A DNA stretch of 20,812 nucleotides from a virus, in IMG/VR virus record IMGVR_UViG_3300032883_000209, positions 1 through 20,812 of that record. The stretch is one strand, 5' to 3'. The translations under genes and the position numbers were made by a program. Positions 4,359 to 18,134 of the stretch are shown piece by piece; the stretch's first letter is position 1, and every line of letters begins with the position of its first letter. The notes beneath the pieces are model-generated. The model made no database searches, was not told the origin of the DNA, and worked only from the letters and a program-made list of their open reading frames with translations.

Positions 4359-6425
4359 ATGGATTCAAAAGATAAACAGCCGGTCGGTGTTTCAGAAAGC
4401 CCGCACTCGGGGCCGGAGAAAGAGGAAGTTGAATCCTGGCTCCGCACCATTGAGAACACCGTCCGGTGGAGAGATTCCATCGGCGACAAGATGGGGTGGA
4501 AAAGATTTATAAACGAGTTCAAGAACAAATGGGATTTTCTCCAGGCTTCCGTATCGATTCCCATCGTTCCCATCAACCTCGTTTTCGCCTACGTCAAGAC
4601 TGAAATCGCCCGCCTTTATTTTAAAGACCCGTGGATCACCGTCAACCCCAAGCGCCACGAGGACATCGGCGCCGCCCAGATCGGCGAGCAGGTGATCAAT
4701 TATATGTGGACTGATTTGAAACTCAAATCGCAGATCAAGCAGGTCATTCTCGAAGCTTTGCTTGTCGGCCATTCCTGGATCAAGGTCGGGTACGCCGCCG
4801 AATTTGGAACAGTTGAATCCCAACCCAAGGAGGAACCGAAACGTGGCCCAGGCCGACCCCCGATCAAGAAATACAAGGAAGTCGAAACCAACGAATACAT
4901 CAAGTCTGAATCCGTCTTCGCTTATCACGTACCCTACAAAGACATTATCTTCGACCCGTCCGCCACATACCCTTGCACTCACAATGCGCGTTGGATGGCT
5001 CACAAAGTGGTCAAGCCGTACCGTGCCGTGGTTCAGTCCGGCATTTACGAACACACCGACGAACTGAAACCCAGCGTTTATATCGACGATCCGAACGTTG
5101 TTTTCGACACGCCGGATTCTCTTCAGGAAAGCTTCGGCAAGAACGTCCGGGCGGTCGCCATGTGGGAAATCTACGATCTCGATCATCAGGTGATCACGAC
5201 CGTTTCCGCCGGCTGTAAATTCAAGTTAAGAGAAATCCCTCTTCCCGACTATTTGAACGGCGGGTTCCCGTTTATCCAGTTCGCTTTCAATCCCGTTCCT
5301 GGCGACGTTTACCCATTGTCCGATATTGCCCCCCATGAAGGCCAGATTATCGAACTCATCAAACTTGTTTCAATCGAGTTGAATCACTTAAAACGCTGGA
5401 ACCGGCAGATGATTATCCCCGCTGGACTATTTACTGCTGACGAGAAAGCGAAATTCAAGGACGCAAATGACGGGGCTTTAATCGAATCCCAGGATCAGAA
5501 CGTCAAAGACAAAATTTTCGTTCCGCCCTACGCCCCTGTCCAATCCGATATATACGGTGTTTTCAATCAGATATTTCAACTCTGGCAGATGATCTCGGGA
5601 CAGACTTCGACCGATCAAGGGGGACAGGCCAAGACCCAGACCCGCACTCTCGGCGAACTCAGGATGGCGCTTCAGGGATCGCGGGCCAGGCCGGAAGAGA
5701 AAGTGGATGTTCTCGAAGATTCTATCGCCGAAGTGGCGAGGAAGATCATGGTTATCATTCAGAAGAAATACGATCTGCCGAAGCTCGCCCGAATCGTCGG
5801 GCCGAAGTCAATCCAGGAGAAGGTGTTGAAGAATTTACAAAACCGTCCGTCTGCCCAACCCATGATGCCTCAGCAACCAGGAATTCAGGGCCAGCCCCAA
5901 CAGCCTCCCCAGCCCAATCCTCTTGCCAGTCAATCGTTTCAATCAGACTTCGGATTTTCCTGGAACCGAACCGACATCATGGGCGAGATGGACGTGGACG
6001 TTCTGGCGGGATCAACGGTACCGATGGACAGGGAATCTCAACTACAAATAATGGAAAAAATGGTTCCGCTCCTCGGAGCCGCAGGCGTGACTCCTGGATC
6101 ACCGCCCGCCAAAGCTTTCGCCCGCGAGTTCTTAAGGCTGGTCGGGATCATGAGTCTGGAAACGGTGATGGACTTAATCGAAGCGCAACCTCAGACGCCG
6201 CCTCCGAAGCTGATGGAAGTACAGGCCAAGGTTCAGGCGAAAATGGCTGAGACCCAGATGAAATTAAAAGGAAAGCAGGAGGAAGAAAAGCTGAAGCTTC
6301 AGGGGATGAGAGAGAAGTTGAACATCGACCGCGAGAAAGGGCAGATGGGTATCCAGAAAGACATCGTTCACTCGATTTTAGAGCAATTCAGGGGAAACGG
6401 AGAAAAAAACAATGAGCAGATATAA
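4359..6425 (+). CDS. Portal protein (head-tail connector)
   Basis: 688 residues behind GGGAGAG. Portal proteins form the dodecameric ring at one capsid vertex through which terminase pumps DNA and to which the tail attaches. The N-terminal third has the usual helical opening with a PINLVFAYVKTEIARLYF segment and VILEALLVGHSWIKVGY. The middle has the helical core, with QTSTDQGGQAKTQTRTLGEL near residues 415-434. Residues about 494-524 are Pro/Gln-rich, probably a flexible linker. Residues about 614-680 are a Lys/Glu/Gln-rich coiled coil that may form a barrel-like extension. The length is close to P22-type portals (about 725) and longer than most siphovirus portals. The terminator at 4304-4344 lies just ahead. 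Confidence 0.9.
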   Translation: MDSKDKQPVGVSESPHSGPEKEEVESWLRTIENTVRWRDSIGDKMGWKRFINEFKNKWDFLQASVSIPIVPINLVFAYVKTEIARLYFKDPWITVNPKRHEDIGAAQIGEQVINYMWTDLKLKSQIKQVILEALLVGHSWIKVGYAAEFGTVESQPKEEPKRGPGRPPIKKYKEVETNEYIKSESVFAYHVPYKDIIFDPSATYPCTHNARWMAHKVVKPYRAVVQSGIYEHTDELKPSVYIDDPNVVFDTPDSLQESFGKNVRAVAMWEIYDLDHQVITTVSAGCKFKLREIPLPDYLNGGFPFIQFAFNPVPGDVYPLSDIAPHEGQIIELIKLVSIELNHLKRWNRQMIIPAGLFTADEKAKFKDANDGALIESQDQNVKDKIFVPPYAPVQSDIYGVFNQIFQLWQMISGQTSTDQGGQAKTQTRTLGELRMALQGSRARPEEKVDVLEDSIAEVARKIMVIIQKKYDLPKLARIVGPKSIQEKVLKNLQNRPSAQPMMPQQPGIQGQPQQPPQPNPLASQSFQSDFGFSWNRTDIMGEMDVDVLAGSTVPMDRESQLQIMEKMVPLLGAAGVTPGSPPAKAFAREFLRLVGIMSLETVMDLIEAQPQTPPPKLMEVQAKVQAKMAETQMKLKGKQEEEKLKLQGMREKLNIDREKGQMGIQKDIVHSILEQFRGNGEKNNEQI

Positions 6426-6528
6426 AAAATTGGCTTCGCAGTTTGGAAAGAAGATCAAAGACCCAGGCGCCCATATATCTCATGCGGCGGTTGGTCTTTT
6501 AAGAAAGAACCGAAAGAAAAAATCTTGA
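6412..6528 (+). CDS. Small very basic protein after portal
   Basis: 38 residues from the ATG at 6412, which overlaps the portal's end by 14 nt and is preceded by GGAGA. The product is Lys/Arg-rich (about a third of residues), with a short hydrophobic middle (HISHAAVGLL) and the end RKNRKKKS. Its TGA abuts the next ATG at 6529 directly, so it fits the tight packing of the operon. A charge pattern like this suits contact with DNA or the acidic portal tail. No family is recognised. Confidence 0.55.
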   Translation: MSRYKKLASQFGKKIKDPGAHISHAAVGLLRKNRKKKS

Positions 6529-6834
6529 ATGAACTGCGGAAACTGCGGAAATCAAAACGCCAGAATTTGGAAAACGAACGGACTATTGGAGATGTGCGAT
6601 GGGTGCGGGGCGTCCCCCAGGGGGTTGCCTGATGTTTACTTCAAAGAGCCTTACTGGGATCACCATCTGTCAAGTGAGGATCACCCGGGGCCGAAGTTCA
6701 TAACGAGCAGGGGAGAGAAGAAGATGTGGCTGGAAAAATGCAATTTAAGGGAGGCGGGTGATCGGGTTCACGGAGCTTCGAGTTTCGATCCGATTTCTCA
6801 CCGACACGCGATGGAATCTTTAAGGAGGAAATAA
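6529..6834 (+). CDS. Small protein with N-terminal zinc ribbon
   Basis: 101 residues. The N-terminus has the paired knuckles CGNCG (3-7) and CDGCG (23-27), a compact zinc ribbon. The rest is polar with SSEDHPGPKF and ISHRHAMESLRRK and several His. The start directly follows the previous stop. Proteins of this shape (an amino-terminal ribbon on a short polar body) occur between portal and scaffold genes of environmental phages, to my recollection without assigned function. It may bind metal for assembly or regulation. This is inference. Confidence 0.7.
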   Translation: MNCGNCGNQNARIWKTNGLLEMCDGCGASPRGLPDVYFKEPYWDHHLSSEDHPGPKFITSRGEKKMWLEKCNLREAGDRVHGASSFDPISHRHAMESLRRK

Positions 6835-6835
6835 A

Positions 6836-6967
6836 ATGGCAAAAGACAAAATGATTAATTCGACGGAATCAGTGAAGGGCGGATCTGTTTTGGGATCGAC
6901 CCTCAAAGACATGGAAGAACACGACATGAACGTTCTGAACGACTCGGGACGAAAGTCGGGTAAATAA
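6836..6967 (+). CDS. Small polar protein, unknown
   Basis: 43 residues from the ATG at 6836, behind a strong AAGGAGG at good spacing and two bases past the previous stop. It is Lys/Asp/Ser-rich with no Cys, no membrane segment and the end SGRKSGK. The ribosome site and packing make it a likely gene. No function can be suggested beyond membership of the portal-scaffold interval. Confidence 0.6.
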   Translation: MAKDKMINSTESVKGGSVLGSTLKDMEEHDMNVLNDSGRKSGK

Positions 6968-6969
6968 AA

Positions 6970-7281
6970 ATGGCCGTTATAGACGAACTGAAGAATCTGA
7001 GAGCCAAAGGCTACGACTCCAAAGATCAGGGGATGGATTCAGGGGAGAAGAATGAAACTCCTCGGATCATCGCTCTGACTGATGATGAGAAGAAAGCCTT
7101 TGCGAACTCGAAGCCAGGCGAGGATCTCGCTTGTGAAATGCATGGCAGCCTTGAATCCGACGGCCATTTTCACGTGATGAGCGTGGGGCCGATGGGTGGA
7201 CAGGGGGGCATGGGCGAGCAGGAGATGGCTGGACAGGTGGCTCAGCGGGTGCAGCCGAATATAGCGCCCAGTCCGAGTTGA
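6970..7281 (+). CDS. Small acidic, Gly/Met-rich-tailed protein
   Basis: 103 residues. The first two thirds are charged and helical (MAVIDELKNLRAKGYDSKD; LTDDEKKAFANSKPGEDL). The C-terminal third is low complexity in Gly, Met and Gln (GPMGGQGGMGEQEM), likely disordered. It starts two bases after the previous stop with only a weak ribosome site, so coupling is likely. The position just before the scaffold gene suggests a head-assembly accessory. No family is recognised. Confidence 0.65.
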   Translation: MAVIDELKNLRAKGYDSKDQGMDSGEKNETPRIIALTDDEKKAFANSKPGEDLACEMHGSLESDGHFHVMSVGPMGGQGGMGEQEMAGQVAQRVQPNIAPSPS

Positions 7282-7306
7282 CGAAAAATTAAATTAAGGG
7301 GTGATT

Positions 7307-8176
7307 ATGACTGAACAAGCGACGACACAAGACGTTAATCCGGCAGCGGCGGCTCCGGTAGCAGCCGATCCGTTTTCTTTGGATGAGAATTCTTTGGTTT
7401 CTCTCACTCCCGAGCAGCGGGCGGGGCTTGATCCGATTATAGACGGCTGGAAGAAGAAAGCGACCGCGGAGATCACAAGACGTGAAACCGAGACGACGGG
7501 TAAGTATAAGCCTTACGAAGACAAGGCCACCGCCCTTGACAAATTAACTCAGTATCAGCCGTTTGTCCAATGGTGGAACGCGGAGCAACTCAAGGCTCAG
7601 GCGCAGACGAATCCGCTTCAAGCTCAGGCTATCGGTCAGACCAAACCGACGGATGTTGCCACTCCCCAAGAATGGCAGGACGCGATTGTAGAAGCTTCTC
7701 AGGGTGACGGGACGAAGCTTCAGACTCTCCAGGCCAGGATGATGGCGACGTGGGCCACGCCGTTCGTTAAAGAGTTGAAGGATAAACAGCAGACTCTTGA
7801 CACCAAGCTTGGGATGCGGGATCTGTTTGAAAGCCATCCTGACGCAAAAGAGTTGGACTTGATCGGGCTCGATCCCAAAACCAAGGAAGGGATCAGCTTG
7901 TTAGAGACGGGACTTGACTGGGCGGAGAACAACAATAAGTCTATAGAAGAGGGATATGAGCTTGCCAAGCGATGGGCGGATTCGATGAAAGTCACTGAGC
8001 AACAGCGGGTGATGGGGATGATCAACGACAAGAAGCAAACGACCACGGCGGGGCCGTCAACATCGACCGCGAACGTCAATATCGTTGAGGTTGGGACGGT
8101 GGACGAACTCTTGAAACAGAGCATGGAAGCCCAGCTTTCAGGAAACAAGGACGCAAAATTTGTTTTGAAGAAATAG
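7307..8176 (+). CDS. Scaffold-like head assembly protein
   Basis: 289 residues from the ATG at 7307. AAGGGGTG lies at the right distance for it, which makes the nearby GTG 7301 less likely. An Ala/Pro-rich start leads into LTPEQRAGLDPIIDGWKKKA and a long region rich in Gln, Ala and Lys (AEQLKAQAQTNPLQAQAIGQ), followed by amphipathic helices and a Lys-rich end (DAKFVLKK). This composition and the position directly before the capsid gene are typical of scaffolds, which template procapsid assembly and then leave, often through a basic C-terminus that binds the shell. No protease domain is seen. Confidence 0.75.
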   Translation: MTEQATTQDVNPAAAAPVAADPFSLDENSLVSLTPEQRAGLDPIIDGWKKKATAEITRRETETTGKYKPYEDKATALDKLTQYQPFVQWWNAEQLKAQAQTNPLQAQAIGQTKPTDVATPQEWQDAIVEASQGDGTKLQTLQARMMATWATPFVKELKDKQQTLDTKLGMRDLFESHPDAKELDLIGLDPKTKEGISLLETGLDWAENNNKSIEEGYELAKRWADSMKVTEQQRVMGMINDKKQTTTAGPSTSTANVNIVEVGTVDELLKQSMEAQLSGNKDAKFVLKK

Positions 8177-8180
8177 ATTT

Positions 8181-8242
8181 CCGCCTGGTTTATGGCGGTA
8201 AAAATTGTGAAGGGGTCACAATAGTATGGGCTGACAAGCCCA
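8181..8242 (+). promoter_or_regulatory. Three consecutive hairpins upstream of the capsid gene
   Basis: CCGCC/GGCGG (8181-8198), ATTGTGA/TCACAAT around AGGGG (8204-8222), and TGGGCT/AGCCCA around GACA (8227-8242) fill almost the whole 79-nt gap. None is followed by a T run, so they are not terminators. The last ends against the capsid ribosome site (AAAGGAG). Stacked 5' hairpins of this sort commonly protect highly expressed messages or direct processing. Confidence 0.5.
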
Positions 8243-8255
8243 AAGGAGAAGATAT

Positions 8256-9218
8256 ATGGCTGTAGCAGATACCATACTATCGTATGGGCCAGCTAATGTC
8301 ACATCATTGATAGCGACAACCCTATCAACTTATGGCAAGACGTTGGCTGATAATATTCATAAAGCAATTCCTCTTCTGGCATGGCTCACCATTAAAAAAA
8401 GGGTCACTGAAGAAGGCGGGGCCACGATTATCCGATCCGTGGTTTACGGGTCGAATAGCACGGCGATGTTCTATTCGTCTGATGATGTCTTGGATACGTC
8501 TATTCAGGACAATTTCACTGCCGCTCAGTGGCAGTGGAGACAGGCTGCGGCTTCAATCGCAGTCACGGGCAGGATCGAACTCCAGAACGCGGGAAAGGCT
8601 CAGGTAATCGATTACGCGAAAGCGCAGATCGACAACGCCCTGGCTTCGCTGAAAGAGGTCATCGATCAGAAGCTATACGCTTCGGCTCAGTCTGGAGCGA
8701 ACATCACGCCGTTGACCGACATCGTTAAGGCGTCGGGAACCGTTGGCGAAATCAACGGAACTACCAACGCGTGGTGGGATTCGACTGTCACGGCTTCCGG
8801 ATCGTTTGCGGCCAGGGGTCTTTCCGACCTTCGGACGGCATGGGACACGGTGTCGGTGAAAATGCCTGCGGGCGGGCCGGACATCATCATCTCCGATCAA
8901 ACTGCTTACGAGGCGTATGAGGCAGTTCTAGTGCCGACAATAAGGTACTCGGACGTGAGCATGGGCGATCTCGGCTTCTCGAACTTGAAATACAAGGAAG
9001 CGGTGTGGACTTGGGATCCGAACGCGACTTCGGGAGTTGTTTACCTCTTGAATTCCAAGGCGTTGGAACTCGTTCAGCATTCAAGTCGATTGTTCACGAT
9101 CAGTGAGTGGGTCAAACCGGCTGCTCAGGACTTGAAAGTAGCTCAGGTCTTTTGGGCGGGCGAACTCACGACCAACAACCGGAGAAAACTGGCGTCGCTG
9201 ACCGGAGTCACGGCATAA
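8256..9218 (+). CDS. Major capsid protein, HK97-type
   Basis: 320 residues behind AAAGGAG. It forms the icosahedral shell. The sequence shows an N-terminal arm (first about 45 residues), a central region with TEEGGATIIRSVVYG and long helices (IDYAKAQIDNALASLKEVID) like the HK97 spine helix. A P-domain/A-domain part follows, with PDIIISDQTAYEAYEAVLVP and TIRYSDVSMGDLGFSNLKYK. The end (FWAGELTTNNRRKLASLTGV) is the usual beta-strand close of this fold. No N-terminal delta domain is fused, in line with a separate scaffold. The length is in the family range. It is Ser/Thr/Asn-rich and is a candidate acceptor for the sugar cassette downstream. Confidence 0.9.
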   Translation: MAVADTILSYGPANVTSLIATTLSTYGKTLADNIHKAIPLLAWLTIKKRVTEEGGATIIRSVVYGSNSTAMFYSSDDVLDTSIQDNFTAAQWQWRQAAASIAVTGRIELQNAGKAQVIDYAKAQIDNALASLKEVIDQKLYASAQSGANITPLTDIVKASGTVGEINGTTNAWWDSTVTASGSFAARGLSDLRTAWDTVSVKMPAGGPDIIISDQTAYEAYEAVLVPTIRYSDVSMGDLGFSNLKYKEAVWTWDPNATSGVVYLLNSKALELVQHSSRLFTISEWVKPAAQDLKVAQVFWAGELTTNNRRKLASLTGVTA

Positions 9219-9230
9219 TAAGGAGGATCT

Positions 9231-9512
9231 ATGGCATTCAGCGCAACTGTTAGGGGTCAGACTTATAACGGCCCGTTCCACCGCACCATATGGGGGGAAT
9301 GGACTGGAAGTGCCGGTGACGCAGCAGGATCGTTTGTTGTTGCGGGTAATGTGTTCAGGGCGGATTTCGTCAAATACGATCCGCTCGATCAGACTACCCA
9401 GATCCACGCAAGGGTCGGGATCAGTCAAACTGGAGCTATCTCAACGCTAACAATTGAGAACCAGGACACCGTTACAGCAGGGCATTTCTTTATTGATGTT
9501 TTAGGATGTTGA
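9231..9512 (+). CDS. Small beta-rich protein after capsid
   Basis: 93 residues behind AAGGAGG. It alternates short strands with Gly and Asn turns (ATVRGQTYNG; GNVFRADFVKYD; STLTIENQDTVTAGHFFIDV) and has no long helix. The size, composition and place directly after the capsid gene suggest a head decoration or stabilisation protein. No family is recognised. Confidence 0.65.
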   Translation: MAFSATVRGQTYNGPFHRTIWGEWTGSAGDAAGSFVVAGNVFRADFVKYDPLDQTTQIHARVGISQTGAISTLTIENQDTVTAGHFFIDVLGC

Positions 9513-9623
9513 AGTAATTGGGTGACGGCACTCGGGGTTACTCGGGGAGCTTTCCAACGAGGGGTCAGGAGACGCGCCGGATGGCGCCGCACCCAAGGTT
9601 TAAGGGGTAAAGGCAGGTTTATT

Positions 9624-10088
9624 ATGTTGTTTAAACAAGCAGCGCTCGGCGACGAGCGGGCTTTTATGACGATCAAAAACATGGAAGCGTCGAGCATAAC
9701 GCTGGGATATGCTGTTAATCTTATGGTAGGGGCGGCCAGTGCGGCTTCATTTGATGGAACACAGGCGCTTATGACGGCGACGGGAGTGGCCGGTAATCTT
9801 CCTGGTTTTATCGGGATTGCGGTCAAGGATATTCCGACGACTCAATATGGGCTTGTGCAGTGTTTTGGGAATTGCGCTTCCGTGTTGATTTCAAACAGGG
9901 CGACTTCGGTCACAATCGCAACAGGAGATCCGCTGATTCCGTCGGCGGTGCCAGGGGCGCTTTCAAGCGGAGTGCCGACATACGCGGCCTCGGGGTTCAA
10001 TTGGGTGATCTGTTCCAACGCGACCTCGAACACGTTGTCGTTGGCGGCTCCGGCGTATGTGTCGGGATTCATTCGTTGTCTTAAATAA
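9624..10088 (+). CDS. Beta-rich virion protein, probable decoration-like
   Basis: 154 residues from ATG 9624, with AGGCAGG and AAGGGGT upstream. A GTG at 9522 would add 34 in-frame residues, but they are Arg-rich, lack a ribosome site and are encoded by a structured stretch, so the short form is preferred. The body is Ala/Gly/Ser/Thr-rich with a LPGFIGIAVKDIPTTQYGLV core, and then TSVTIATGDPLIPS. That pattern resembles small capsid-coat proteins ('giav.di....g.v...G.....GD.l'). It is a virion component by inference from position and composition. Confidence 0.65.
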   Translation: MLFKQAALGDERAFMTIKNMEASSITLGYAVNLMVGAASAASFDGTQALMTATGVAGNLPGFIGIAVKDIPTTQYGLVQCFGNCASVLISNRATSVTIATGDPLIPSAVPGALSSGVPTYAASGFNWVICSNATSNTLSLAAPAYVSGFIRCLK

Positions 10089-10304
10089 ATGACAAAAAAG
10101 GGGAAAGGCGAAAGTCTTTTAGATAAGTGGCTGGATCGGAGGTTGGGGAACTATCAAACCCCCAACCTCCGCAGCCGCATATTCTGGTGTGAATCATGCA
10201 GTCATTACAGGAATGCGAAACAGTTGGAAGCGGGAGTTTGCTTAACCCACCGGATGTGGGAGAAAAGCGAGACGATTCTGAACTATCTGAAAAGCCTCAT
10301 CTAG
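10089..10304 (+). CDS. Small CCCH zinc-ribbon-like protein
   Basis: 71 residues. The ATG follows the previous stop directly. A basic N-terminal helix (about 1-25) is followed by CESC (about 34-37) and CLTH (about 51-54), giving C-x2-C-x13-C-x2-H, a plausible single zinc site. The end is a short helix. It overlaps the possible early start of the next gene by 109 nt, so one of the two starts may be wrong. It sits exactly at the boundary between head genes and the sugar cassette. Confidence 0.55.
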   Translation: MTKKGKGESLLDKWLDRRLGNYQTPNLRSRIFWCESCSHYRNAKQLEAGVCLTHRMWEKSETILNYLKSLI

Positions 10305-11041
10305 AGAAAGTTCATAAGGTCGTCTTAGGTGTGATCCTAAAGGGACACACCCCTCCCCAGTCCTATCACGACCGGATGTTGATGTGGAAATATCTGGGCG
10401 GTCAGGAAGCCGTTGATTTTTACACAAGGAAAGATCCGCGATACGTATTCGCCATCGGAGCGGTCGGGGAAGTTCTCGCTCCGTTTGCCAGGGAAGTTCT
10501 GGCCGATGCGGCACTCACTTCCGGTAGTGATTATTTGTTTATGGTTGATGACGACATGATGGCTCCCCCCGATTTGTTTTACAAACTCGCGGCCCATGAT
10601 AAGGACATAGTTGCGGCGCTGGCGTTCACAAGAAACCCCGATCATAGGCCGGTGATCTATGAAACGATTGAAGGTTACGATTCGGTGACAAAAAGCCGAT
10701 ACGGGATGACGAGGTTCGTCATGAACTACCCCAAGAATAAGCTTGTCGAGTGCGATGCCGTGGGGTTCGGCGCGGTGCTGATCAAGACCGAGGTTTTTAA
10801 GAAAGTTCCGAAACCGTGGTTTTTCGGGATGGCGCAAACCGGCGAAGACATCACGATCTGCATGAAAGCGAGGAAAGTGGGGTTCAGGGTGTGGATGGAC
10901 ACCTCGTTAAAGCTGGGTCATTTGGGGGCGCCGACGATTGTCACTGAGGAATATTCTGAAGTCTGGAACAAGTTGACGCCGGAGGAAAAGGACAAAACAT
11001 ACGGAAAATATCAGAAATATGAGACGGAGAACATGAAATGA
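10196..11041 (+). CDS. GT-A glycosyltransferase, cassette gene 1
   Basis: Up to 281 residues. The GT-A Rossmann-like fold transfers a sugar from a nucleotide donor. Visible are the first strand KVVLGVIL (41-48), the metal-binding acidic triad in FMVDDDMM (DDD at 118-120), the acceptor-side ECDAVGFGAVLIK, and GED (216-218) with a later His (242) in LKLGHLG. No membrane segment is seen, so it acts in the cytoplasm. The ATG at 10196 has no ribosome site and the first about 38 residues look noncoding. TTG 10238, GTG 10256 or GTG 10331 are alternatives. The stop is certain and overlaps the next ATG (ATGA). Donor and acceptor are unknown. Confidence 0.8.
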   Translation: MQSLQECETVGSGSLLNPPDVGEKRDDSELSEKPHLEKVHKVVLGVILKGHTPPQSYHDRMLMWKYLGGQEAVDFYTRKDPRYVFAIGAVGEVLAPFAREVLADAALTSGSDYLFMVDDDMMAPPDLFYKLAAHDKDIVAALAFTRNPDHRPVIYETIEGYDSVTKSRYGMTRFVMNYPKNKLVECDAVGFGAVLIKTEVFKKVPKPWFFGMAQTGEDITICMKARKVGFRVWMDTSLKLGHLGAPTIVTEEYSEVWNKLTPEEKDKTYGKYQKYETENMK

Positions 11042-11763
11042 ACGCCGACATAATCATTCCCACGTGGAATAATTTGACATATCTCATTCCGTGTGTTGGC
11101 TCCATTCTCCAGAATACCGTGAGCGACCCTTTTCGGATCATCGTTGTCAACAACGGCGAACCCGAGCATTCAAAATGTTTCAAGGAAGATCCGAGGCTTA
11201 AGATCCTCCAGCAAACTGAAAACGTCGGCTGGGAAAGAGGGTTGGTTGCGGGGTTAAAAGTATCGGACGCTCCCTTCGTTTTGTTCATGAATGACGACAC
11301 TTTCATACCGGCTTCAAGTTCGGATTGGCTGACAAGATTGTTGAGTCATTTCGACGAGCCTGATTGTGCGGCGGTGGGGCCGAGTTCAAATGTTGTCATG
11401 GGCAAGCAAAATATTTTTGCTCCTGTTCCTGAAAACCTGATTCGAGCCAAGTTCCTGATCGGGTTCTGCGAAGCGGTGAGAAGGGCTGATCTGGATGCGG
11501 TGGGAGGAATCGATGAATCCCTGCCTGGCGGAGACGATTTGGATTTATCCATTAGGCTTCGGGATTTGGGGAAACGGCTATTGATTGATCGTAACGTCTT
11601 TGTCTATCACCACGGGTTTAAAACAGGGGAAAGGGTCGAAGGCGGGCCAAACCAGACAGGCGGTTGGAATTCAATCGACAAAATCGAGCGGACGAACCAC
11701 GCGTTGATCAGAAAACACGGACTGTTCAAATTCCTTGATCTATGGAACGACTATGGACTTTAA
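11038..11763 (+). CDS. GT2-family glycosyltransferase, cassette gene 2
   Basis: 241 residues. This is a classic family 2 GT-A transferase. It opens MNADIIIPTWNN, a typical first strand, with IIVVNNG (34-40) and ENVGWERG (61-68). The metal-binding NDD lies in FMNDDT (85-87), and GGDDLDLSIRL (164-174) is the acidic/acceptor segment seen in rhamnosyl- and related transferases. Late His residues (191-192) fit the family. It is compact and soluble, lacking the C-terminal membrane helices of many GT2 enzymes, so a lipid-linked acceptor is less likely. It overlaps its predecessor by 4 nt. Confidence 0.9.
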   Translation: MNADIIIPTWNNLTYLIPCVGSILQNTVSDPFRIIVVNNGEPEHSKCFKEDPRLKILQQTENVGWERGLVAGLKVSDAPFVLFMNDDTFIPASSSDWLTRLLSHFDEPDCAAVGPSSNVVMGKQNIFAPVPENLIRAKFLIGFCEAVRRADLDAVGGIDESLPGGDDLDLSIRLRDLGKRLLIDRNVFVYHHGFKTGERVEGGPNQTGGWNSIDKIERTNHALIRKHGLFKFLDLWNDYGL

Positions 11764-12706
11764 GAAACCGCGAATCTCTTTGTTTTACAACGTTCTGCCC
11801 CAAACGGGATTTAGAAATGATGGGGCCAACTTGTTCCTTCATTATAATTACAAGAAGTTGTTGGACGGAATGGACGCCTATTTTAACCCCGATCTCATCC
11901 AAAATGACACCGGAAATATCGTCTGCCTGTCTCCGCTAGATCCCCATCATCATATTGGAACATTCGATTTGAACGGACTCGTGGATTACGGCGAGGACGG
12001 GTTGGGGATTCCACTCGATTGGGAGATTCCGCACCCTAATTTTTATTGGATCGCCGACTCTCATCGGGGTTACGAATACCGTCTTAATCGGGCGAAACAG
12101 TTCGACACTGTTTTTGCCAGCCACAAGCCTTCGATTGAGAAGTTCATCAAAGACGGGATTCCCGCTGAGAAGATTCATTATCTTCCGTGGGCGGCGGAAC
12201 CCATGGCTTATAAACCGTTCTCGATCATCGAGAAATGGGACTGGTGTTTCATCGGACATCTGACCCATTACGATAGGATTGCGCTCATGGATCGATTCTG
12301 TAAAGAATGGCCGGTCGGAGAGAAGGGGTATTTGGGTTGGCGACAAGGGGAGTTTGTGGGGCATAACGTTTTTGAAGACGCGGCCAGAAAATATTGCCAA
12401 TCGAGGATCGTTTTGAACGAGAGCATTCAAGATGACGTCAATATGAGGGATTTTGAAGTGCTGGCTTGCGAGCGGTTACTTTTGCGTGAGGACATTCCAG
12501 GGATTCATGATCACTTCGAGGACGGGAAACATTTGGTTTTGTTTAAATCCATCGACGAAGCGGTGGAGAAAGCCAAATATTATCTGGCTCACGAGGATGA
12601 ACGGAACTTGATTGCTGAGGCAGGATACAAGGAATTTTTGGACAAGCATACCTATATGCACCGTGCGAAGGAAATTTTGAAAGTATGTCTGGGGTGGGAA
12701 CCGTGA
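11753..12706 (+). CDS. GT-B glycosyltransferase (CgeB/GT4-like), cassette gene 3
   Basis: 317 residues from the ATG at 11753, overlapping the previous gene by 11 nt. A TTG at 11735 would add six residues. The N-terminal half carries FYWIADSHRGYEYRL and VFASHKPSIEKF. The second half shows LPWAAEP, FIGHLTHYDR and the signature NMRDFEVLACE (N-x-R-x-F-E-x-x-A-C type), seen in the glycosyltransferase group related to spore protein CgeB and family GT4. So a third, structurally different transferase belongs to the set. No membrane segment is present. The sugar and acceptor are unknown. Confidence 0.85.
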   Translation: MDFKKPRISLFYNVLPQTGFRNDGANLFLHYNYKKLLDGMDAYFNPDLIQNDTGNIVCLSPLDPHHHIGTFDLNGLVDYGEDGLGIPLDWEIPHPNFYWIADSHRGYEYRLNRAKQFDTVFASHKPSIEKFIKDGIPAEKIHYLPWAAEPMAYKPFSIIEKWDWCFIGHLTHYDRIALMDRFCKEWPVGEKGYLGWRQGEFVGHNVFEDAARKYCQSRIVLNESIQDDVNMRDFEVLACERLLLREDIPGIHDHFEDGKHLVLFKSIDEAVEKAKYYLAHEDERNLIAEAGYKEFLDKHTYMHRAKEILKVCLGWEP

Positions 12707-13374
12707 ATTATCCTCTTTTCCTATCGAATTATTTAAGGGTGATTTATTCTCAAAACGGAGACGAGACATTCGCTTTCTTGAAGATGGCGACACAGGGGTT
12801 GTCGAGCCCGAGAGTCGGGAAGCTGATCAACATGGCCGTTAGTTGCATGGAAGGAGAAGAGAGATACGTAGAGACGGGTGTTTTCACGGGGTATACATTG
12901 GCTTCGGCTGCTCATGGAAATATGAAAACCGTCTTGGGAATCGACAATTTCGATGTGAGCGGTGAGGACTCAAGTGTTGGGGTGGAGATGAACCCCGATT
13001 CGATCCGAGAGAAGTTGAAGAAGAACATGGAATACTTTTGCGTCGGAGGGCAGGTCATAGAAAGCGATTTCAGGGGCGTGAATTTGGACGGGGTTAAAAC
13101 GGGGGTCTCTTATATTGACGCCCGCCATGATTACGTTACTGTGATCGATAATCTTACATGGCTGGAACCGTCTCTTGCGAAAGACGCGGTTATTATCCTC
13201 GACGATTTGGACTGTCCTGGGGTAGCGGAGGCGCTTTTGGACTGGCTGAAAGGCCACAAGGAATATGAACTTCTGTTTTTCTCGAAGTCTAAAGGGTGCA
13301 TGAGCCGTGACGCGACGTATGACAAGACGTTTACCAATGGGTTGGCGGTCGTTCATTACAAGGGGAAAGAATGA
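12703..13374 (+). CDS. Class I SAM methyltransferase, paralogue A
   Basis: 223 residues from GTG 12703, which overlaps the previous stop by 4 nt (GTGA). ATG 12685 is an alternative, but the shorter form places motif I (ETGVFTG) at 57-63, exactly as in the paralogue at 14018. Other landmarks are VLGIDNF (motif II acidic residue), GVSYIDARHDY, LTWLEPSLA and VIILDDLD, the Methyltransf_24 layout used by sugar O-methyltransferases among others. It follows the glycosyltransferases, so a sugar or glycan hydroxyl is a natural target. The substrate is not shown by the sequence. AAAGT upstream gives no strong ribosome site, so coupling is likely. Confidence 0.85.
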   Translation: MNYPLFLSNYLRVIYSQNGDETFAFLKMATQGLSSPRVGKLINMAVSCMEGEERYVETGVFTGYTLASAAHGNMKTVLGIDNFDVSGEDSSVGVEMNPDSIREKLKKNMEYFCVGGQVIESDFRGVNLDGVKTGVSYIDARHDYVTVIDNLTWLEPSLAKDAVIILDDLDCPGVAEALLDWLKGHKEYELLFFSKSKGCMSRDATYDKTFTNGLAVVHYKGKE

Positions 13375-14021
13375 AAACGCACTTCGATCAGGGAATTAAT
13401 TTAAGAAAGATGATTTTGGAAATGAAGCCCAAGGTTATCCTGGAATGCGGAGCGGGGAACGGCGACTGCACGGTTCTCCTGGCTCAACTGTTTAATGATT
13501 ATCCGTTTGAATTTCATGTGGTTTCGGACAAAATGGTGGACGGTCTCGACCCGAAAATTAAATGGCATATCGGGCTCAGCTACAATGAACTTCATAAGTT
13601 TGAGGATAAGAGCATAGATTTGTGCATCATTGACACCGACCATAATTTTTGGACTTTGACCAAGGAGTTAGAGGCCGTTTCTCCGAAGATAAGCGAGGGC
13701 GGAGTTATCGTCTTCCATGATGTTGATATGTTTTACCACGACACGGGGATGGCGATGAGCTACTGGAACGACGAGCCGTATCCAGAGAAAGAGATTTTAA
13801 GAATGTCTCATTACGGCGGAGTCGGTCTCGCGCTTCTTAAATTTCTTGCGAATAACGGCGACAAATATAAATTGGCGGGCTGGACGAACGAAAACATGGG
13901 CGCGGCGGTGATACAGAAAAAGACGATAGCGACGGTGAGAATTGTCACTCCGGCGAGCAATCCGCCGTTCGCAAAACCCTATGGGGGAAAAGTGGAAGTG
14001 GGGGACACGGTAGAAATATGA
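13371..14021 (+). CDS. Class I SAM methyltransferase, middle gene
   Basis: 216 residues. Motif I is ECGAGNGD (25-32), a good AdoMet-binding loop. Later come LCIIDTDHNFW, LEAVSPKISEGGVIVFHDVDM with a metal-like HD, and a C-terminal part with PASNPPFAKPYGG. The layout is again Methyltransf_24-like, but the protein is clearly not a recent copy of its neighbours. The start overlaps the previous stop (ATGA) and its stop overlaps the next ATG. It could act on the same glycan at a different position. No membrane segment is present. Confidence 0.85.
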   Translation: MKTHFDQGINLRKMILEMKPKVILECGAGNGDCTVLLAQLFNDYPFEFHVVSDKMVDGLDPKIKWHIGLSYNELHKFEDKSIDLCIIDTDHNFWTLTKELEAVSPKISEGGVIVFHDVDMFYHDTGMAMSYWNDEPYPEKEILRMSHYGGVGLALLKFLANNGDKYKLAGWTNENMGAAVIQKKTIATVRIVTPASNPPFAKPYGGKVEVGDTVEI

Positions 14022-14737
14022 ACATGGACTGCTTTTTAAAACGGTTCGCCGACATTTTGTGCAACGATAAGAACGACGATATTTTCAACACGATTAATAT
14101 CATCACCGGAGGAACCACGTCGTCGAGGATTTGTAAGCTTCTTAATTTCGCTGTTTCTCAATTGGACGATTCAGAATGCTATGTGGAGGTGGGGGTGTAT
14201 TTGGGAGCCAGCCTTTGTTCAGCGGGATTGAATAATGAAAAAACGTGCATCGGGATAGACAATTACAAACATGATGCCCCAGAATTTATCAACAAAAAGG
14301 TGGAGGGAGTACGGGATCGGTGTCTTCACAATATTCGTTCTTTTTCTTGGAGGGCAGAACTTATTGAGAAGGATTTTCGGGACGTGAAGGCGGAGGAAAT
14401 CGGAAAACCGGTCGGGGTCTCGTTTATTGACGGTAAGCATGATTTTGAAGATGTGACCAAAAACTTGGAATGGCTGGAACCGCTTTTGGCGGACGACGCT
14501 ATTATCGTTTTTGACGATATCAATTATTACAAAGTGGCGGACGCGCTTGGTAAATGGCTGGATTCACACGCGAAGAACTATGAATTGATTTGTTATTTAA
14601 AGCCGTTTTATAAAGATTGTAATTACATCTCTTCTGTCTACGAACGATTCCTAAACAATGGGGTTGCCATTGTTCGGTACAACAGAAAAGGAACCGTGAA
14701 CTGGGTTTTACCTGGCCCAGTAGAGGTCAAACCGTGA
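14018..14737 (+). CDS. Class I SAM methyltransferase, paralogue C
   Basis: 239 residues, homologous along its length to the gene at 12703. Motif I EVGVYLG is at 57-63, with CIGIDNY, GVSFIDGKHDF, LEWLEPLLADDAIIVFDDI and NNGVAIVRY matching it in order. It is longer at the C-terminus (NWVLPGPVEVKP). The two copies differ at many positions, so the duplication is old and the proteins probably differ in target. It begins at ATGA over the previous stop and ends at GTGA over the radical SAM gene. The second in-frame ATG (14024) is possible. Confidence 0.85.
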   Translation: MNMDCFLKRFADILCNDKNDDIFNTINIITGGTTSSRICKLLNFAVSQLDDSECYVEVGVYLGASLCSAGLNNEKTCIGIDNYKHDAPEFINKKVEGVRDRCLHNIRSFSWRAELIEKDFRDVKAEEIGKPVGVSFIDGKHDFEDVTKNLEWLEPLLADDAIIVFDDINYYKVADALGKWLDSHAKNYELICYLKPFYKDCNYISSVYERFLNNGVAIVRYNRKGTVNWVLPGPVEVKP

Positions 14738-16233
14738 AGCCTATTTGCCTGATTATTCCGCCTTCCCCTTTTCTCTTGGACGAACGGGTATTTATGAGTT
14801 TGGGGATTTTGAGAATCGCCGCCGTTTTGGAAAGAGAGGGGATTCCGGTTGAGGTTCTCGATCTTTCGGGGATTCAGAATTACACAGACGCATTAATGTT
14901 CCACGCGGGACATTCCGAAACCGAGTTCTATGGAATCACCGCCACAACGCCGCAAATGCCCTCCGCTTCTCTTTTGGCCGGTATTATAAGGAGAACCAAA
15001 CCGGAAGCTAGGATCATCCTTGGCGGGCCGCATCCTACCCTTGTTTTGGCCGCTTGTAAGAAAGAGAAGGTGCTAGGAAGGGCGTCAAGGGCCAGGGAAG
15101 AGTTGAATAAAACTTTTGATGTGATTGTGGCCGGTGATGGAGAACAGGCTATTTTCAAGGCGATGGAACCGAACGCCCCTAAATGGATTGACGCCGATGA
15201 TCCGAAGGGGCTCCTTTTTCTCACTAGTGAGGAATTGACCCAGCTTCCTTTTCCTGCCCGTCATTTGGTGGACGTTGAAAGCTACCATTATTATGTGGAC
15301 GGGGAGCGAGCGACATCTTTAATCGCTCAACTCGGATGTCCTTTTGGCTGCGGGTTTTGCGGGGGGCGCAATTCCCCGATGCTTAGGCGGGTTAGGATGA
15401 GAACGACAAAAAGCGTTGTTGATGAGGTTATTTCCCTTTACAGAGATTACGGGGTCAAGGGATTCATGTTCTATGACGATGAACTCAACGTGAATCCGAG
15501 AATGATCGAGATGATGAACGAGATCGAGCGCGCCCAAAAGGAACTGGGTGTTCAATTTAGATTGCGGGGGTTCTTGAAATCTCAATTATTTACCGATGCC
15601 CAAGCCGAGGCGATGGTCAAGGCGGGGTTTAGGTGGGTTCTGGTCGGGTTTGAATCCGGAAGCGAACGTATTTTGACGAATATAAACAAAAGATCAACCC
15701 AGTCGGAGAATACCAGGTGTGTTGAGATCGCCAAAAGACACGGGCTCAAGGTGAAAGCTCTTATGTCTATCGGCCATCCAGGTGAAAGTTTGGAGACTTT
15801 GAAAGAAACGCGGGACTGGCTGATCTTGAACAAGCCCGATGATTTTGACGTGACGATTATCACTCCCTACCCTGGTTCTCCTTATTATGACGATTCGGTT
15901 CAAAACGAGAAAGGAGACTGGGTTTACACTTATCCTAAGACCGGCGACAAACTTTATTCAGAGGAAGTGGATTATTTTAAAACCGCTGATTATTACAAAG
16001 GCGATCCGAACGGTGGGTACCGATCCTACGTTTACACCGACACTCTTTCTAAGATTGATTTGGTAATGGAACGGGACAAGATGGAATTTGGAATAAGGCG
16101 GGAATTAAATATTCCTTTTAATCCTTCAGTGCCAGCCGTTCGGTTTGAGCATTCAATGGGGCAAACGAGCCTCCCGCCGATTATTTTGAAGTCGTCAAAT
16201 AAAATTAAGGGGGTAGTTTATGGCTCTAGTTAG
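14734..16233 (+). CDS. B12-binding radical SAM enzyme
   Basis: 499 residues from GTG, overlapping the previous stop (GTGA). The N-terminal about 150 residues read as a B12-binding Rossmann domain: strand PICLIIPPSP, LGILRIAAVLEREG, IILGGPHPT and a DVIVAGDGEQA end. The usual His of a DxHxxG motif is absent (DLSG instead), as in many cobalamin-radical SAM enzymes. The radical SAM domain has CPFGCGFC (Cys202, 206, 209), the CX3CX2C site for a [4Fe-4S] cluster. FMFYDDELNV and LVGFESGSERIL follow as typical barrel segments. Such enzymes methylate unactivated carbon or phosphorus, or rearrange substrates. Here a sugar or virion residue is plausible but unproved. Confidence 0.9.
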   Translation: MKPICLIIPPSPFLLDERVFMSLGILRIAAVLEREGIPVEVLDLSGIQNYTDALMFHAGHSETEFYGITATTPQMPSASLLAGIIRRTKPEARIILGGPHPTLVLAACKKEKVLGRASRAREELNKTFDVIVAGDGEQAIFKAMEPNAPKWIDADDPKGLLFLTSEELTQLPFPARHLVDVESYHYYVDGERATSLIAQLGCPFGCGFCGGRNSPMLRRVRMRTTKSVVDEVISLYRDYGVKGFMFYDDELNVNPRMIEMMNEIERAQKELGVQFRLRGFLKSQLFTDAQAEAMVKAGFRWVLVGFESGSERILTNINKRSTQSENTRCVEIAKRHGLKVKALMSIGHPGESLETLKETRDWLILNKPDDFDVTIITPYPGSPYYDDSVQNEKGDWVYTYPKTGDKLYSEEVDYFKTADYYKGDPNGGYRSYVYTDTLSKIDLVMERDKMEFGIRRELNIPFNPSVPAVRFEHSMGQTSLPPIILKSSNKIKGVVYGSS

Positions 16234-16879
16234 GTTATGCGGACATTTCGTCGATAATCCGAATCACATTGATAAGTTGATCTGTATCAAAGGTCTGCCT
16301 GAGAATTTCTTCTTCCGGCCCTGTCGTTTAGGGGGGAAAGAACTCGTCCCGCCATGGAAACCGGATGTTGAATCGACCATTCCTCAGAGTATTCGTCATT
16401 TGTGCGAAGAACAGGAAATAAAAATTATTTACTCTCCTATTGAGAAAGGAAAAGAGCCGGTTGTTGATACGGTAAAAATAATCGGATTGAGGTTGGATTT
16501 CGGTACCGAGCCAGGCCAGGAAATGTGGGCGAAGATTGAGCGTTACCTGGAAAAATCGGTGTCGAGAGATCAGGCTGTTCCGAAACCTGTTTTATGCGCG
16601 CCGAATCAAAAATCAGAGTTTAATCCTCATGAAGCGAGACGGACGGTCAGGGGATCGCTGGAATTCCGGCCCGCCGAGATTCCGGTTATTGACTTGAGGC
16701 CGACTTTGGCGCCGGAAGTTCCATTGGTTTCTCAACCCGCTATTCAGACTGCTTCGGTAAATACTTCGGTTCCTGCATGGCATTGTAAAAAATGCCCCAC
16801 TCAATTCACCGACTTGAAGTCGTTGCGGGTTCACAATTTAAGGGGACATCGAAAAGTTAAAGAAAAAGTAGGAGTTTAA
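16220..16879 (+). CDS. Protein with C-terminal C2H2 zinc finger
   Basis: 219 residues behind TTAAGGGGG. It overlaps the radical SAM gene by 14 nt. Residues 1-120 are mixed and not recognised. Residues about 120-180 are Pro/Val/Ala-rich, a likely flexible linker. At the end C189-x2-C192-x12-H205-x4-H210 with Phe196 and Leu202 at the conserved places matches the classical C2H2 finger exactly, followed by a basic tail (RKVKEKVGV). Single fingers of this type are common in eukaryotes but rarer in bacteria and phages. DNA or protein binding is the expected role. It links the sugar cassette to virion genes. Confidence 0.75.
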   Translation: MALVRLCGHFVDNPNHIDKLICIKGLPENFFFRPCRLGGKELVPPWKPDVESTIPQSIRHLCEEQEIKIIYSPIEKGKEPVVDTVKIIGLRLDFGTEPGQEMWAKIERYLEKSVSRDQAVPKPVLCAPNQKSEFNPHEARRTVRGSLEFRPAEIPVIDLRPTLAPEVPLVSQPAIQTASVNTSVPAWHCKKCPTQFTDLKSLRVHNLRGHRKVKEKVGV

Positions 16880-16882
16880 ATT

Positions 16883-17197
16883 ATGCCAATACCTTATTCA
16901 TGCGGAGCGACAAGGCTTGCCGCGTCAGCAGATGTTAGTGACGCTGGAAAGCCTGTTTTAATTTGCGGATATGGGGTCGAATCGGGGGCGACTGCGGCCC
17001 AACCTTATTTCAATAATGGAACGGCGGCTGTTCCAGGAACAACCGTGTTTCGACCCGGCCCAATTACGGCCAGTCAAGGGAATATTAGTCCTCTCGCTGC
17101 GGTACCCGTTATGTTCCCGACGGGTTGTTACGTCAGTTTTGACGCGAACACGACGGCAGTGACTGTTTTTTATGCTCTTCAGTCTGTAACGAGTTAA
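16883..17197 (+). CDS. Small beta-rich virion protein candidate
   Basis: 104 residues starting 3 nt past the previous stop. It is a Ser/Thr/Ala/Asn-rich sequence with short strands (KPVLICGYGVESG; PVMFPTGCYVSFD; AVTVFYALQSV) and no helix-rich part, like small phage head or neck decorations. It lies between the cassette and the adaptor gene. It and the proteins at 9231-9512 and 9624-10088 are the small structural candidates on either side of the cassette. No family is recognised. Confidence 0.6.
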   Translation: MPIPYSCGATRLAASADVSDAGKPVLICGYGVESGATAAQPYFNNGTAAVPGTTVFRPGPITASQGNISPLAAVPVMFPTGCYVSFDANTTAVTVFYALQSVTS

Positions 17198-17228: not shown

Positions 17229-18134
17229 GTGGCAAATTTGGCGTTCTCGGATTTACTTCTGGAGGTTTTTGCCCATACGGGCTTAGATTCAACGGATGCG
17301 ACCAACACAGCGAATGCGACCCGCTGGTGCAATTACGTCCAGCAGGATATTTGCGCTCGGTGGCCGTGGCCGTTCATGCAATCAAGAGAAGCGATTGTCA
17401 CTGTCAAAGATTATTCGACCGGAACGGTCAGCGTAACCTCGGGTTCAACGACCGTCAACGGAACCCTCACCGTCTTTACTACGACGATGGCCGCCGGTCA
17501 ATACTACATTCAATTTCAGGGCTCCAACGACTGGTACAAAATAGCGACCCGTGTTTCCGACGTTCAGATCACCATCGAGCAGGCTTATGCGGGAACCGCC
17601 AATCTCACCAACGGCACTTTTATCGTCAGGAAGTTCTTTTACAGCCTCTCCTCTTCCTGTGACCGGATCGTCGATATACGAAACTGGGCCACACCGCTTA
17701 AGATGTTCGAGGTTGATCCCCGAACACTGGACGATCTCCGTCCCTTGGTTCAATCCACGAACAGTTCCTATGGTTATTTGTGCTGGGGCGTTGACACCGC
17801 GGGAAACATTCAGGTTTCTCCCTATCCGTTTCCGTCGGACGCAAGGGTTTTGGAACTCCGAACGATGACGCGCCCAACCGACGGATCGGTAAGTATCCCG
17901 AACAAATACGCTCATGTCATTGCGTGGGGCGCTGTCGCCGTCGGGTTCGCTTTTATGAGAAAGCTTGAACTCGCTGGAGCGTGGAGCAACAAACTGGAAC
18001 AACGGCTTTCCGAGATGCGGTCTGAATACCGGATGTCGGAGGACGAACAGCCGATCATGAGATCGATAGATTCGGTACAGCGGGCGAAGTGGATACAGAT
18101 GCCCGAAAGTTACCCTGTGATAACGAGCGGATGA
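17229..18134 (+). CDS. Head-tail adaptor (P22 gp4-like role)
   Basis: 301 residues from GTG with AGGAAGG and AAGGGGT upstream. The N-terminal helices (LAFSDLLLEVFAHTGL, then NYVQQDICARWPWPFMQ) have the look of connector adaptors that dock under the portal. A beta-rich insert (about 60-140) follows, then a helical close (WGAVAVGFAFMRKLELAG; LEQRLSEMRSEYRMSEDEQP). The order adaptor then hub is that of short-tailed phages. The family resemblance is moderate and the position is strong. Confidence 0.7.
   Translation: MANLAFSDLLLEVFAHTGLDSTDATNTANATRWCNYVQQDICARWPWPFMQSREAIVTVKDYSTGTVSVTSGSTTVNGTLTVFTTTMAAGQYYIQFQGSNDWYKIATRVSDVQITIEQAYAGTANLTNGTFIVRKFFYSLSSSCDRIVDIRNWATPLKMFEVDPRTLDDLRPLVQSTNSSYGYLCWGVDTAGNIQVSPYPFPSDARVLELRTMTRPTDGSVSIPNKYAHVIAWGAVAVGFAFMRKLELAGAWSNKLEQRLSEMRSEYRMSEDEQPIMRSIDSVQRAKWIQMPESYPVITSG

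Follow-up and report, generated by a model that had tools for sequence, protein, structure and literature searches.

Introduction

Glycosylation of phage-particle proteins has been documented for few phages. It is established for some mycobacteriophages, whose capsid and tail-tube subunits carry sugars according to passages in three papers citing Freeman et al. 2023 (PMC11600133, PMC12619734, PMC11256854). The locus described here raises the question of what seven enzyme genes do inside the virion gene block of an uncultured phage. It belongs to IMG/VR record IMGVR_UViG_3300032883_000209, positions 1-20,812; this whole 20,812-nt stretch is called the window, and all coordinates refer to it. 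An earlier, sequence-only reading had seen in these genes a late system that builds and methylates a virion glycan. Our analysis supports that inference, and we consider it very probable that the cassette glycosylates a virion protein.

Results

Seven intact enzyme genes between capsid and adaptor genes

All seven enzyme ORFs (10196-16233) are intact, in frame and on the + strand, which is also that of their neighbours, and they lie between capsid genes and an adaptor gene as originally described. The order is GT1 (GT-A glycosyltransferase, 10196-11041), GT2 (GT-A, family 2, 11038-11763), GT3 (GT-B, 11753-12706), the SAM methyltransferases MT1 (12703-13374), MT2 (13371-14021) and MT3 (14018-14737), and a B12-binding radical SAM enzyme, rSAM (14734-16233). 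The five 4-nt overlaps claimed earlier were all located, with ATGA at GT1/GT2 (11038), MT1/MT2 (13371) and MT2/MT3 (14018), and GTGA at GT3/MT1 (12703) and MT3/rSAM (14734). Longer overlaps occur between GT2 and GT3 (11 nt) and between rSAM and the following gene (14 nt). MT1 may start at GTG 12703 or ATG 12685, and the start of GT1 may lie anywhere from 10196 to 10334, since a start at ATG 10196 makes it overlap the preceding gene by 109 nt, against about 33 nt in most relatives.

Pfam agrees with the enzyme classes assigned from sequence (two GT-A, one GT-B, three methyltransferases and a B12-radical SAM). GT1 is Anp1-like (35.4 bits; cut-off 28.8) with a DDD motif, D118 and D120 being invariant and D119 nearly invariant across relatives. 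GT2 matches Glycos_transf_2 (3e-17) and has an NDD motif, and GT3 matches Glyco_trans_1_2 (6e-30), of GT-B fold. MT1, MT2 and MT3 score 30.9, 47.9 and 57 bits against Methyltransf_24 (cut-off 26.3) and contain E-x-G SAM motifs; MT3 is a paralogue of MT1 (37%), and MT2 also matches the RMNT_CmcI rhamnosyl O-methyltransferase family. rSAM combines a Radical_SAM domain (3e-24) and its CxxxCxxC core with a B12-binding domain (36 bits; cut-off 32.1), the class B hallmark of cobalamin-dependent radical SAM methyltransferases. It falls below the cut-offs of named subfamilies (best BchE, 109 bits against 481; AprD4 is also among the matches), and we propose from its sequence that it may be a sugar C-methyltransferase or a sugar dehydratase-like enzyme.

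Upstream, the major capsid protein gene (MCP, 8256-9218; PHROG 9953 major head protein, 5e-48), with relatives in Mx8 and BUCT555, is followed by a variable gene for a small Ser/Thr-rich beta protein (9231-9512), possibly a second decoration protein, which adjoins MCP in most relatives and is frequently replaced. Next comes the gene for a candidate decoration protein, DEC (9624-10088), whose start had been placed at 9522 and is corrected here to 9624. A 71-aa putative zinc-binding protein with a CxxC...CxxH motif (10089-10304) is kept immediately 5' of GT1 within the window's subclade. Downstream lie a conserved gene with a weak Pfam match and a C-terminal zinc-finger-like motif (16220-16879), a gene for a small Ser/Thr-rich, probable virion protein (16883-17197) that has two copies in some relatives, and the head-tail adaptor-like gene that forms the boundary (17229-18134; PHROG tail-protein matches), which is co-inherited with MCP and portal. 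The conserved neighbourhood also takes in 10089-10304, 16220-16879 and 16883-17197. An Rfam search of the window gave no match.

A conserved glycosyltransferase core with movable tailoring genes

We compared the locus with about 75 related IMG/VR contigs, most of them found through GT1, in which the shared core comprises GT1, GT2 and GT3 only. One fixed seven-gene cassette was rejected, because in relatives MT1-MT3 and rSAM are accessories and some of them lie between terL and portal. The cassette is a conserved glycosyltransferase core with movable tailoring genes. In four contigs without GT2 and GT3, GT1 and a methyltransferase are retained, and three of these contigs encode a different GT-B enzyme. 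GT2 has a long form in 54 of 64 clusters, and the long forms that were examined end in a methyltransferase domain; the window's GT2 is without this domain. Among 50,697 deposited phage records, GT3 and the GT2-methyltransferase fusion are almost without counterpart.

At least one methyltransferase is present in 45 of 47 complete cassettes. Contig L038 contains orthologues of all four accessory genes (56.5% for MT1). Relatives of MT2 (50-55%) follow terL in L020 and L025 and GT3 in L054, L062 and L066, and in L021 and L038 those of rSAM are found in the terL-portal interval. The capsid-adaptor slot of L129, L089 and L094 holds aminotransferase (DegT/DnrJ/EryC1), GDP-mannose-dehydratase-like and formyltransferase genes. 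The description of a system that builds and methylates a glycan fits, because relatives have the GT-methyltransferase fusion and sugar-nucleotide genes in this slot. Could MT1-MT3 and rSAM instead be moron cargo with unrelated roles? This would touch the tailoring sub-claim alone and is compatible with our explanation of the core. Their absence from most relatives and the terL-portal positions of MT2 and rSAM speak for it, but in L038 MT1 and MT3 flank GT3 while MT2-rSAM lie between terL and portal, rSAM relatives sit amid glycosyltransferase and methyltransferase genes in L109, L112 and L113, and the fusion lies within the core itself; we regard cargo as unlikely.

DEC is co-inherited with the glycosyltransferases

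The AF2 model of DEC has moderate confidence (pLDDT 74), and its recognisable top Foldseek matches in the PDB are all phage capsid decoration or cement proteins (HFTV1, 1e-4; Pam3, 3e-4; E217, T1, phi29 gp8.5 and TW1; E from 1e-4 to 1e-2, TM 0.5-0.6). The gene is close to MCP, and its product is predicted to be a decoration-fold protein. DEC showed no profile similarity to Mx8 p49 or to the BUCT555 protein at the same position, and no similarity to a small protein of phage MW202711.

We scored the 68 capsid clusters that have 4 kb or more of downstream sequence. In 60 of them DEC occurs together with GT1, in eight neither gene occurs, and none has one without the other; the 60 are all the capsid lineages of the clade and the eight are outgroup phages. 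DEC and MCP were scanned for with alignments of closer relatives, very broad alignments having no conserved stretch. DEC accompanies GT1 in 64 of 64 clusters. Contigs fetched by capsid alone had both genes (33/33), and those fetched by DEC alone had GT1 (11/11).

The phylogeny of DEC tracks the glycosyltransferases, not capsid, portal or adaptor. Distance matrices fall into two blocks, portal/MCP/adaptor (correlations 0.81-0.89) and DEC/GT1/GT2/GT3 (0.55-0.68), with 0.09-0.32 between them. The partial correlation of DEC with MCP given the glycosyltransferases is 0.03, and that of DEC with GT3 given the backbone is 0.66. GT3 lies farther from DEC than MCP does, so distance alone does not account for the link. 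On the DEC alignment the glycosyltransferase tree beats the backbone tree by 260 log-likelihood units; DEC nevertheless favours its own topology even over the glycosyltransferase tree (AU 3e-5), and hence the module is not perfectly clonal. Pairs of phages with 28-35% capsid identity share 79-82% identity in DEC and 54-69% in the glycosyltransferases.

Co-inheritance of neighbours can also stem from flanking recombination hot spots rather than from an enzyme-substrate link. DEC would then only co-travel in a recombination block, and the main acceptor would be MCP, the 9231-9512 protein or a tail protein. The mycobacteriophage glycans, found on capsid and tail-tube subunits in passages of the papers citing Freeman et al. 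2023, are in keeping with this, as is the Ser/Thr content of MCP and the 9231 and 16883 proteins, which matches that of DEC (17-19%). GT1 homologues also occur where this DEC family is missing (L031/L032, mycobacteriophages and cyanophages), and GT1's relatives can therefore use other acceptors. However, MCP correlates weakly with GT1-GT3 (0.09-0.29, against 0.55-0.68 for DEC), cassettes are common to phages whose capsids are 28-35% identical, and the outgroup phages have the same capsid family with neither DEC nor GT1. We therefore judge another virion acceptor rather improbable, though it is the strongest of the alternatives.

Host glycans and phage DNA as targets

A different target would be a glycan of the host surface, or the precursor of one, remodelled for serotype conversion or superinfection exclusion. 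GT2 is generic and resembles polysaccharide glycosyltransferases such as EpsD, and some relatives may be temperate, as eight of 20 near-complete ones encode an integrase. Against this, a GtrA-type flippase was found in none of the 20 (the control was positive in seven genomes), and no cassette protein has a TM-grade segment (maximum 19-residue Kyte-Doolittle value 1.47), which bears out the earlier remarks that the proteins are soluble and that the membrane partners are missing. O-antigen conversion (gtrABC-like) loci differ in just this respect, the cassette having neither a GtrA-type flippase nor a polytopic glycosyltransferase partner. The core always occupies the capsid-adaptor slot and is tied to the decoration gene. 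The earlier reading would have given way had the homologues always sat in host polysaccharide loci; the opposite was found, all readable GT1 loci of the clade adjoining virion genes. At the scan's sensitivity, 84,980 bacterial and archaeal species genomes yielded one GT1 relative, and the contig that encodes it is itself from a phage, having capsid and adaptor genes. A host-glycan role is disfavoured and, in our estimate, very unlikely. The contig with the single match was binned with an alphaproteobacterial MAG, an association too weak to name a host.

Hypermodification of phage DNA is likewise disfavoured and seems to us the least credible reading of all. GT1 matches the Pfam family TAGT, the TET-associated glycosyltransferases, below threshold (14.3 bits; cut-off 27.5), and related methyltransferases are labelled 'DNA methyltransferase' in PHROG. 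Yet the best matches of the GT1 model are protein glycosyltransferases, and the link to the decoration gene would be left unexplained. Unlike loci with TET-associated or T4-like DNA-modifying glycosyltransferases, the 20 relatives have no member of the thymidylate-synthase/hydroxymethylase family (control positive). A TET/JBP search gave no match, but its control was silent as well, and the search is given no weight.

A model for glycosylation of the decoration protein

The activities, their order, the acceptor and the sugars can be inferred as follows. GT1 would most likely add the first sugar to DEC, and GT2 and GT3 would lengthen the chain with host nucleotide sugars. MT1-MT3 may then O-methylate sugars of the glycan and rSAM may alter it further by C-methylation or deoxygenation, after which glycosylated DEC would be mounted on the capsid. 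On our best reading the glycan is usually methylated. The full statement, a late cytoplasmic virion-glycosylation module with DEC as main acceptor, is in our opinion reasonably probable. DEC and GT1-GT3 may also pass between phages as one enzyme-plus-substrate unit, with tailoring enzymes gained and lost around the core. We hold it an evenly balanced question whether DEC and its dedicated glycosyltransferases are swapped in this way between phages with 28-35% identical capsids, interchangeable methyltransferase, radical SAM and nucleotide-sugar genes diversifying an exchangeable coat.

Nearly all members of a large podovirus-like lineage, apparently uncultured, carry the three-glycosyltransferase cassette, and co-inheritance names a concrete candidate acceptor, testable by co-expression without phage. 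If correct, the model describes a soluble, genetically compact system that glycosylates a small protein, gives each phage a sugar coat exchangeable by genetics, and offers a way to ask what capsid sugars naturally do (adsorption, aggregation, stability).

Relation to known systems

The head module resembles that of Mx8/BUCT555-type podoviruses in capsid family (29-31%) and in the order terL-portal-scaffold-MCP-adaptor; those phages differ in having neither a DEC-family gene nor a glycosyltransferase. The GT1 model matches STIV A197, LH3/COLGALT1, Mnn9, mimivirus R699 and ppGalNAcT; for STIV and mimivirus, from other virus realms and hosts, the likeness is at the level of the GT-A fold only. 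The mycobacteriophages of Freeman et al., as portrayed in passages of the citing papers, likewise have phage glycosyltransferases beside an O-methyltransferase gene and sugars on virion proteins. The chemistry was demonstrated there, whereas the window is known from its genes, with genetics pointing to DEC.

The nearest known kind is the glycosyltransferase/methyltransferase block in the capsid-connector interval of cluster J (Omega-like) mycobacteriophages. According to passages of PMC3706429, 8-10 genes (gp11-gp19 in Thibault) separate the major capsid gene from the head-tail connector genes, among them several for glycosyltransferases and others for SAM methyltransferases; in LittleE gp17 a glycosyltransferase is fused to a methyltransferase. 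Both systems thus place glycosyltransferase genes in the capsid-adaptor interval with SAM methyltransferases alongside, and the fusion recurs in the window's relatives. Cluster J phages differ in being siphoviruses with another capsid and portal and different GT2 and GT3, and in those passages no DEC-family gene is annotated beside the glycosyltransferase and no B12-radical SAM is named; the lineage of the window is uncultured, and in it the core is near-universal. GT1 is 28.6% identical to Thibault gp11, which directly follows the capsid gene, and matches other cluster J phages (E about 1e-5). The Manatee Spring phages MW202711 and MW202496 have a single glycosyltransferase, a GT1 homologue (33%), between capsid and tail-tube gene, with no methyltransferase annotated in the slot; by BLASTP the MW202711 capsid protein is unrelated to the window's. 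The MCP-adaptor slot thus holds a GT1 homologue in phages of other kinds, namely MW202711, MW202496 and Thibault.

Enzyme block of the window

The IMG/VR viral contig (20,812 bases) carries on its + strand, in order, terS-like, terL, portal and scaffold-like genes, the major capsid protein (MCP) gene, small virion-like genes, the enzyme block, the adaptor gene and hub-like genes. The block (10196-16233, + strand) comprises seven intact enzyme genes, which the sequence-only reading had assigned to three glycosyltransferases (GT1-GT3), three SAM methyltransferases (MT1-MT3) and a B12-binding radical SAM enzyme (rSAM), all apparently soluble and joined by five 4-nt overlaps. Pfam matched all seven classes, the overlaps were borne out at 11038, 12703 (GTG), 13371, 14018 and 14734 (GTG), and none of the block's proteins has a membrane-grade segment. 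The catalytic signatures are DDD in GT1, NDD in GT2, SAM motif I in every methyltransferase and CxxxCxxC in rSAM.

Judged from its relatives, the gene preceding the block starts at 9624, not 9522. The start of GT1 is uncertain. From ATG 10196 its frame overlaps a small CxxC/CxxH gene (10089-10304) by 109 nt, and since both frames can be aligned with the related locus L002 across 10196-10304, either this stretch would be dual coding or GT1 would begin at a later GTG or TTG. A conserved gene 3' of the cassette (16220-16879) encodes a C-terminal C2H2-like zinc finger (weak Pfam match).

A predicted decoration protein and the glycosyltransferases

The AlphaFold2 model of the 9624-10088 product (pLDDT 74, pTM 0.73) matched decoration or cement proteins of HFTV1, Pam3, E217, T1, phi29, Sf11 and TW1 in the PDB, with lambda gpD lower, and no other kind of protein was among the best matches. 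Agreement was moderate (TM 0.5-0.6) yet consistent, and by predicted fold the product is a decoration protein. The text of a decoration-protein review (PMC7602432) nowhere contains the word 'glycosyl'.

Related loci (L-numbers, mostly IMG/VR contigs) were gathered by IMG/VR scans with GT1, MCP and the decoration gene, and merging of near-identical copies left 95 clusters, a few of them rSAM or deposited-phage loci. The recurrent order is MCP, (small beta proteins), decoration gene, GT1, GT2, GT3, adaptor, hub. The decoration gene and GT1 occurred together in 60 of the 68 capsid clusters whose contigs run on for 4 kb or more downstream, were both missing from 8 (all deposited phages, e.g. Mx8 and BUCT555) and were never found singly. 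This co-occurrence is not an artefact of fetching with GT1, because both genes were present in 33/33 clusters fetched by capsid only and GT1 in 11/11 fetched via the decoration gene alone. With at least 6 kb downstream, GT1 was found in 46/46 clusters and GT2 with GT3 in 42; the exceptions (L150, L158, L159 and L160) all keep GT1 and a methyltransferase, and L150, L159 and L160 additionally encode another kind of GT-B enzyme. In L063 a run of related Ser/Thr-rich structural-like genes (5461-9227), possibly additional glycan acceptors or fibres, separates GT3 from the adaptor.

We then compared distance matrices across 29 phages possessing all genes. Correlations were 0.81-0.89 among portal, MCP and adaptor, 0.55-0.68 among the decoration protein and GT1-GT3, and just 0.09-0.32 between these two sets. 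The decoration-MCP correlation given the glycosyltransferases was 0.03, that of decoration-GT3 given the backbone (portal, MCP, adaptor) was 0.66, and zero lay outside the bootstrap intervals of the correlation contrasts. The decoration alignment favoured the glycosyltransferase tree over the backbone tree by 260 log-likelihood units; GT1 and GT3 each fit the other glycosyltransferases' tree far better than the backbone tree, whereas MCP does the opposite. Among extreme pairs, L084 and L094 share 35% identity in MCP, 82% in the decoration protein and 66% in GT1, and L105 and L080 share 28%, 79% and 62%, respectively. MCP lies closer than GT3 to the decoration gene, so this pattern is not what physical linkage by itself would predict; recombination boundaries that happen to flank the block are a possible source of it. 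We infer an enzyme-plus-substrate module, in which fold prediction, co-occurrence and phylogeny make the decoration protein the likely acceptor or partner.

At the head of the GT1 fold matches stood STIV A197, collagen glycosyltransferases, Mnn9 and mimivirus R699, which suits a protein acceptor but does not prove one. The sequence-only reading had offered a host glycan precursor as the alternative target. An integrase in 8/20 near-complete relatives points to a possible temperate lifestyle for some, so that host-glycan change by the enzymes keeps a small probability; against this, a scan of 84,980 cellular species genomes found, within its sensitivity, essentially no GT1 homologues (the sole match being a phage contig), and the GtrA flippase was found in none of the 20 relatives, with a working positive control. 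As to DNA modification, no thymidylate-synthase-family enzyme was found in the same 20 (positive control working); a TET/JBP search gave no match, which says nothing on absence since its control was silent too.

Putative methylation and sugar tailoring

GT2 has at least 404 aa in 54/64 clusters, and where examined the C-terminal part of the long form is a class I SAM methyltransferase domain, which is a separate gene in L087. GT2 is short in the window, L002 and L021, and the window has three stand-alone methyltransferases in place of the fused domain. At least one methyltransferase occurs in 45/47 complete cassettes. Orthologues of the window's four accessory genes (MT1-MT3 and rSAM; 54-67% identity) are split in L038, where MT1 and MT3 flank GT3 and MT2-rSAM lies immediately 5' of portal, suggesting one system served by both sites.

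In other phages rSAM relatives lie among glycosyltransferases and methyltransferases, in L113 directly 3' of a portal-like gene. AprD4, an enzyme annotated in apramycin biosynthesis, is among the closest solved relatives of rSAM, and the cut-off was reached for none of the named functional subfamilies, so rSAM could act in either sugar C-methylation or deoxygenation. The capsid-adaptor slot of relatives also holds a DegT-type nucleotide-sugar aminotransferase (L129:8361-10030), a GDP-mannose-dehydratase-like enzyme (L089:4150-5091) and a formyltransferase (L094:8247-8885), which fits the making of unusual sugars. In L113 (3705-11274) the portal-like gene is followed by the B12-radical SAM gene, two glycosyltransferase-like genes, an MT1-like methyltransferase and a glycosidase-like gene, possibly a separate glycosylation cassette beside structural genes.

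Comparison with mycobacteriophages

Mycobacteriophage virion glycosylation has been reported (Freeman et al. 2023, as given in citing papers). Cluster J mycobacteriophages are described as having 8-10 genes between the capsid and connector genes, with several glycosyltransferases and methyltransferases, including a fusion (PMC3706429), and the window GT1 matches Thibault gp11 of that block. In contrast to the mycobacteriophage kind, the window has a capsid of a different family and an accessory B12-radical SAM enzyme, and its apparently uncultured lineage has a near-universal three-glycosyltransferase core containing a glycosyltransferase-methyltransferase fusion; the likely partner of the enzymes is the decoration protein.

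The MCP gene is split in L087 (3402-5059), L060, L061, L088 and L128. The insert in L087 contains a group I intron (Rfam RF00028, 59 bits), and that in L088 encodes an HNH-like endonuclease, as judged by eye; an intron in the capsid gene is likewise described for cluster J (PMC3706429). In the 5' parts of L057, L156, L158, L159 and L161, terL appears as two ORFs, at times kilobases apart, which suggests introns or inserted genes.
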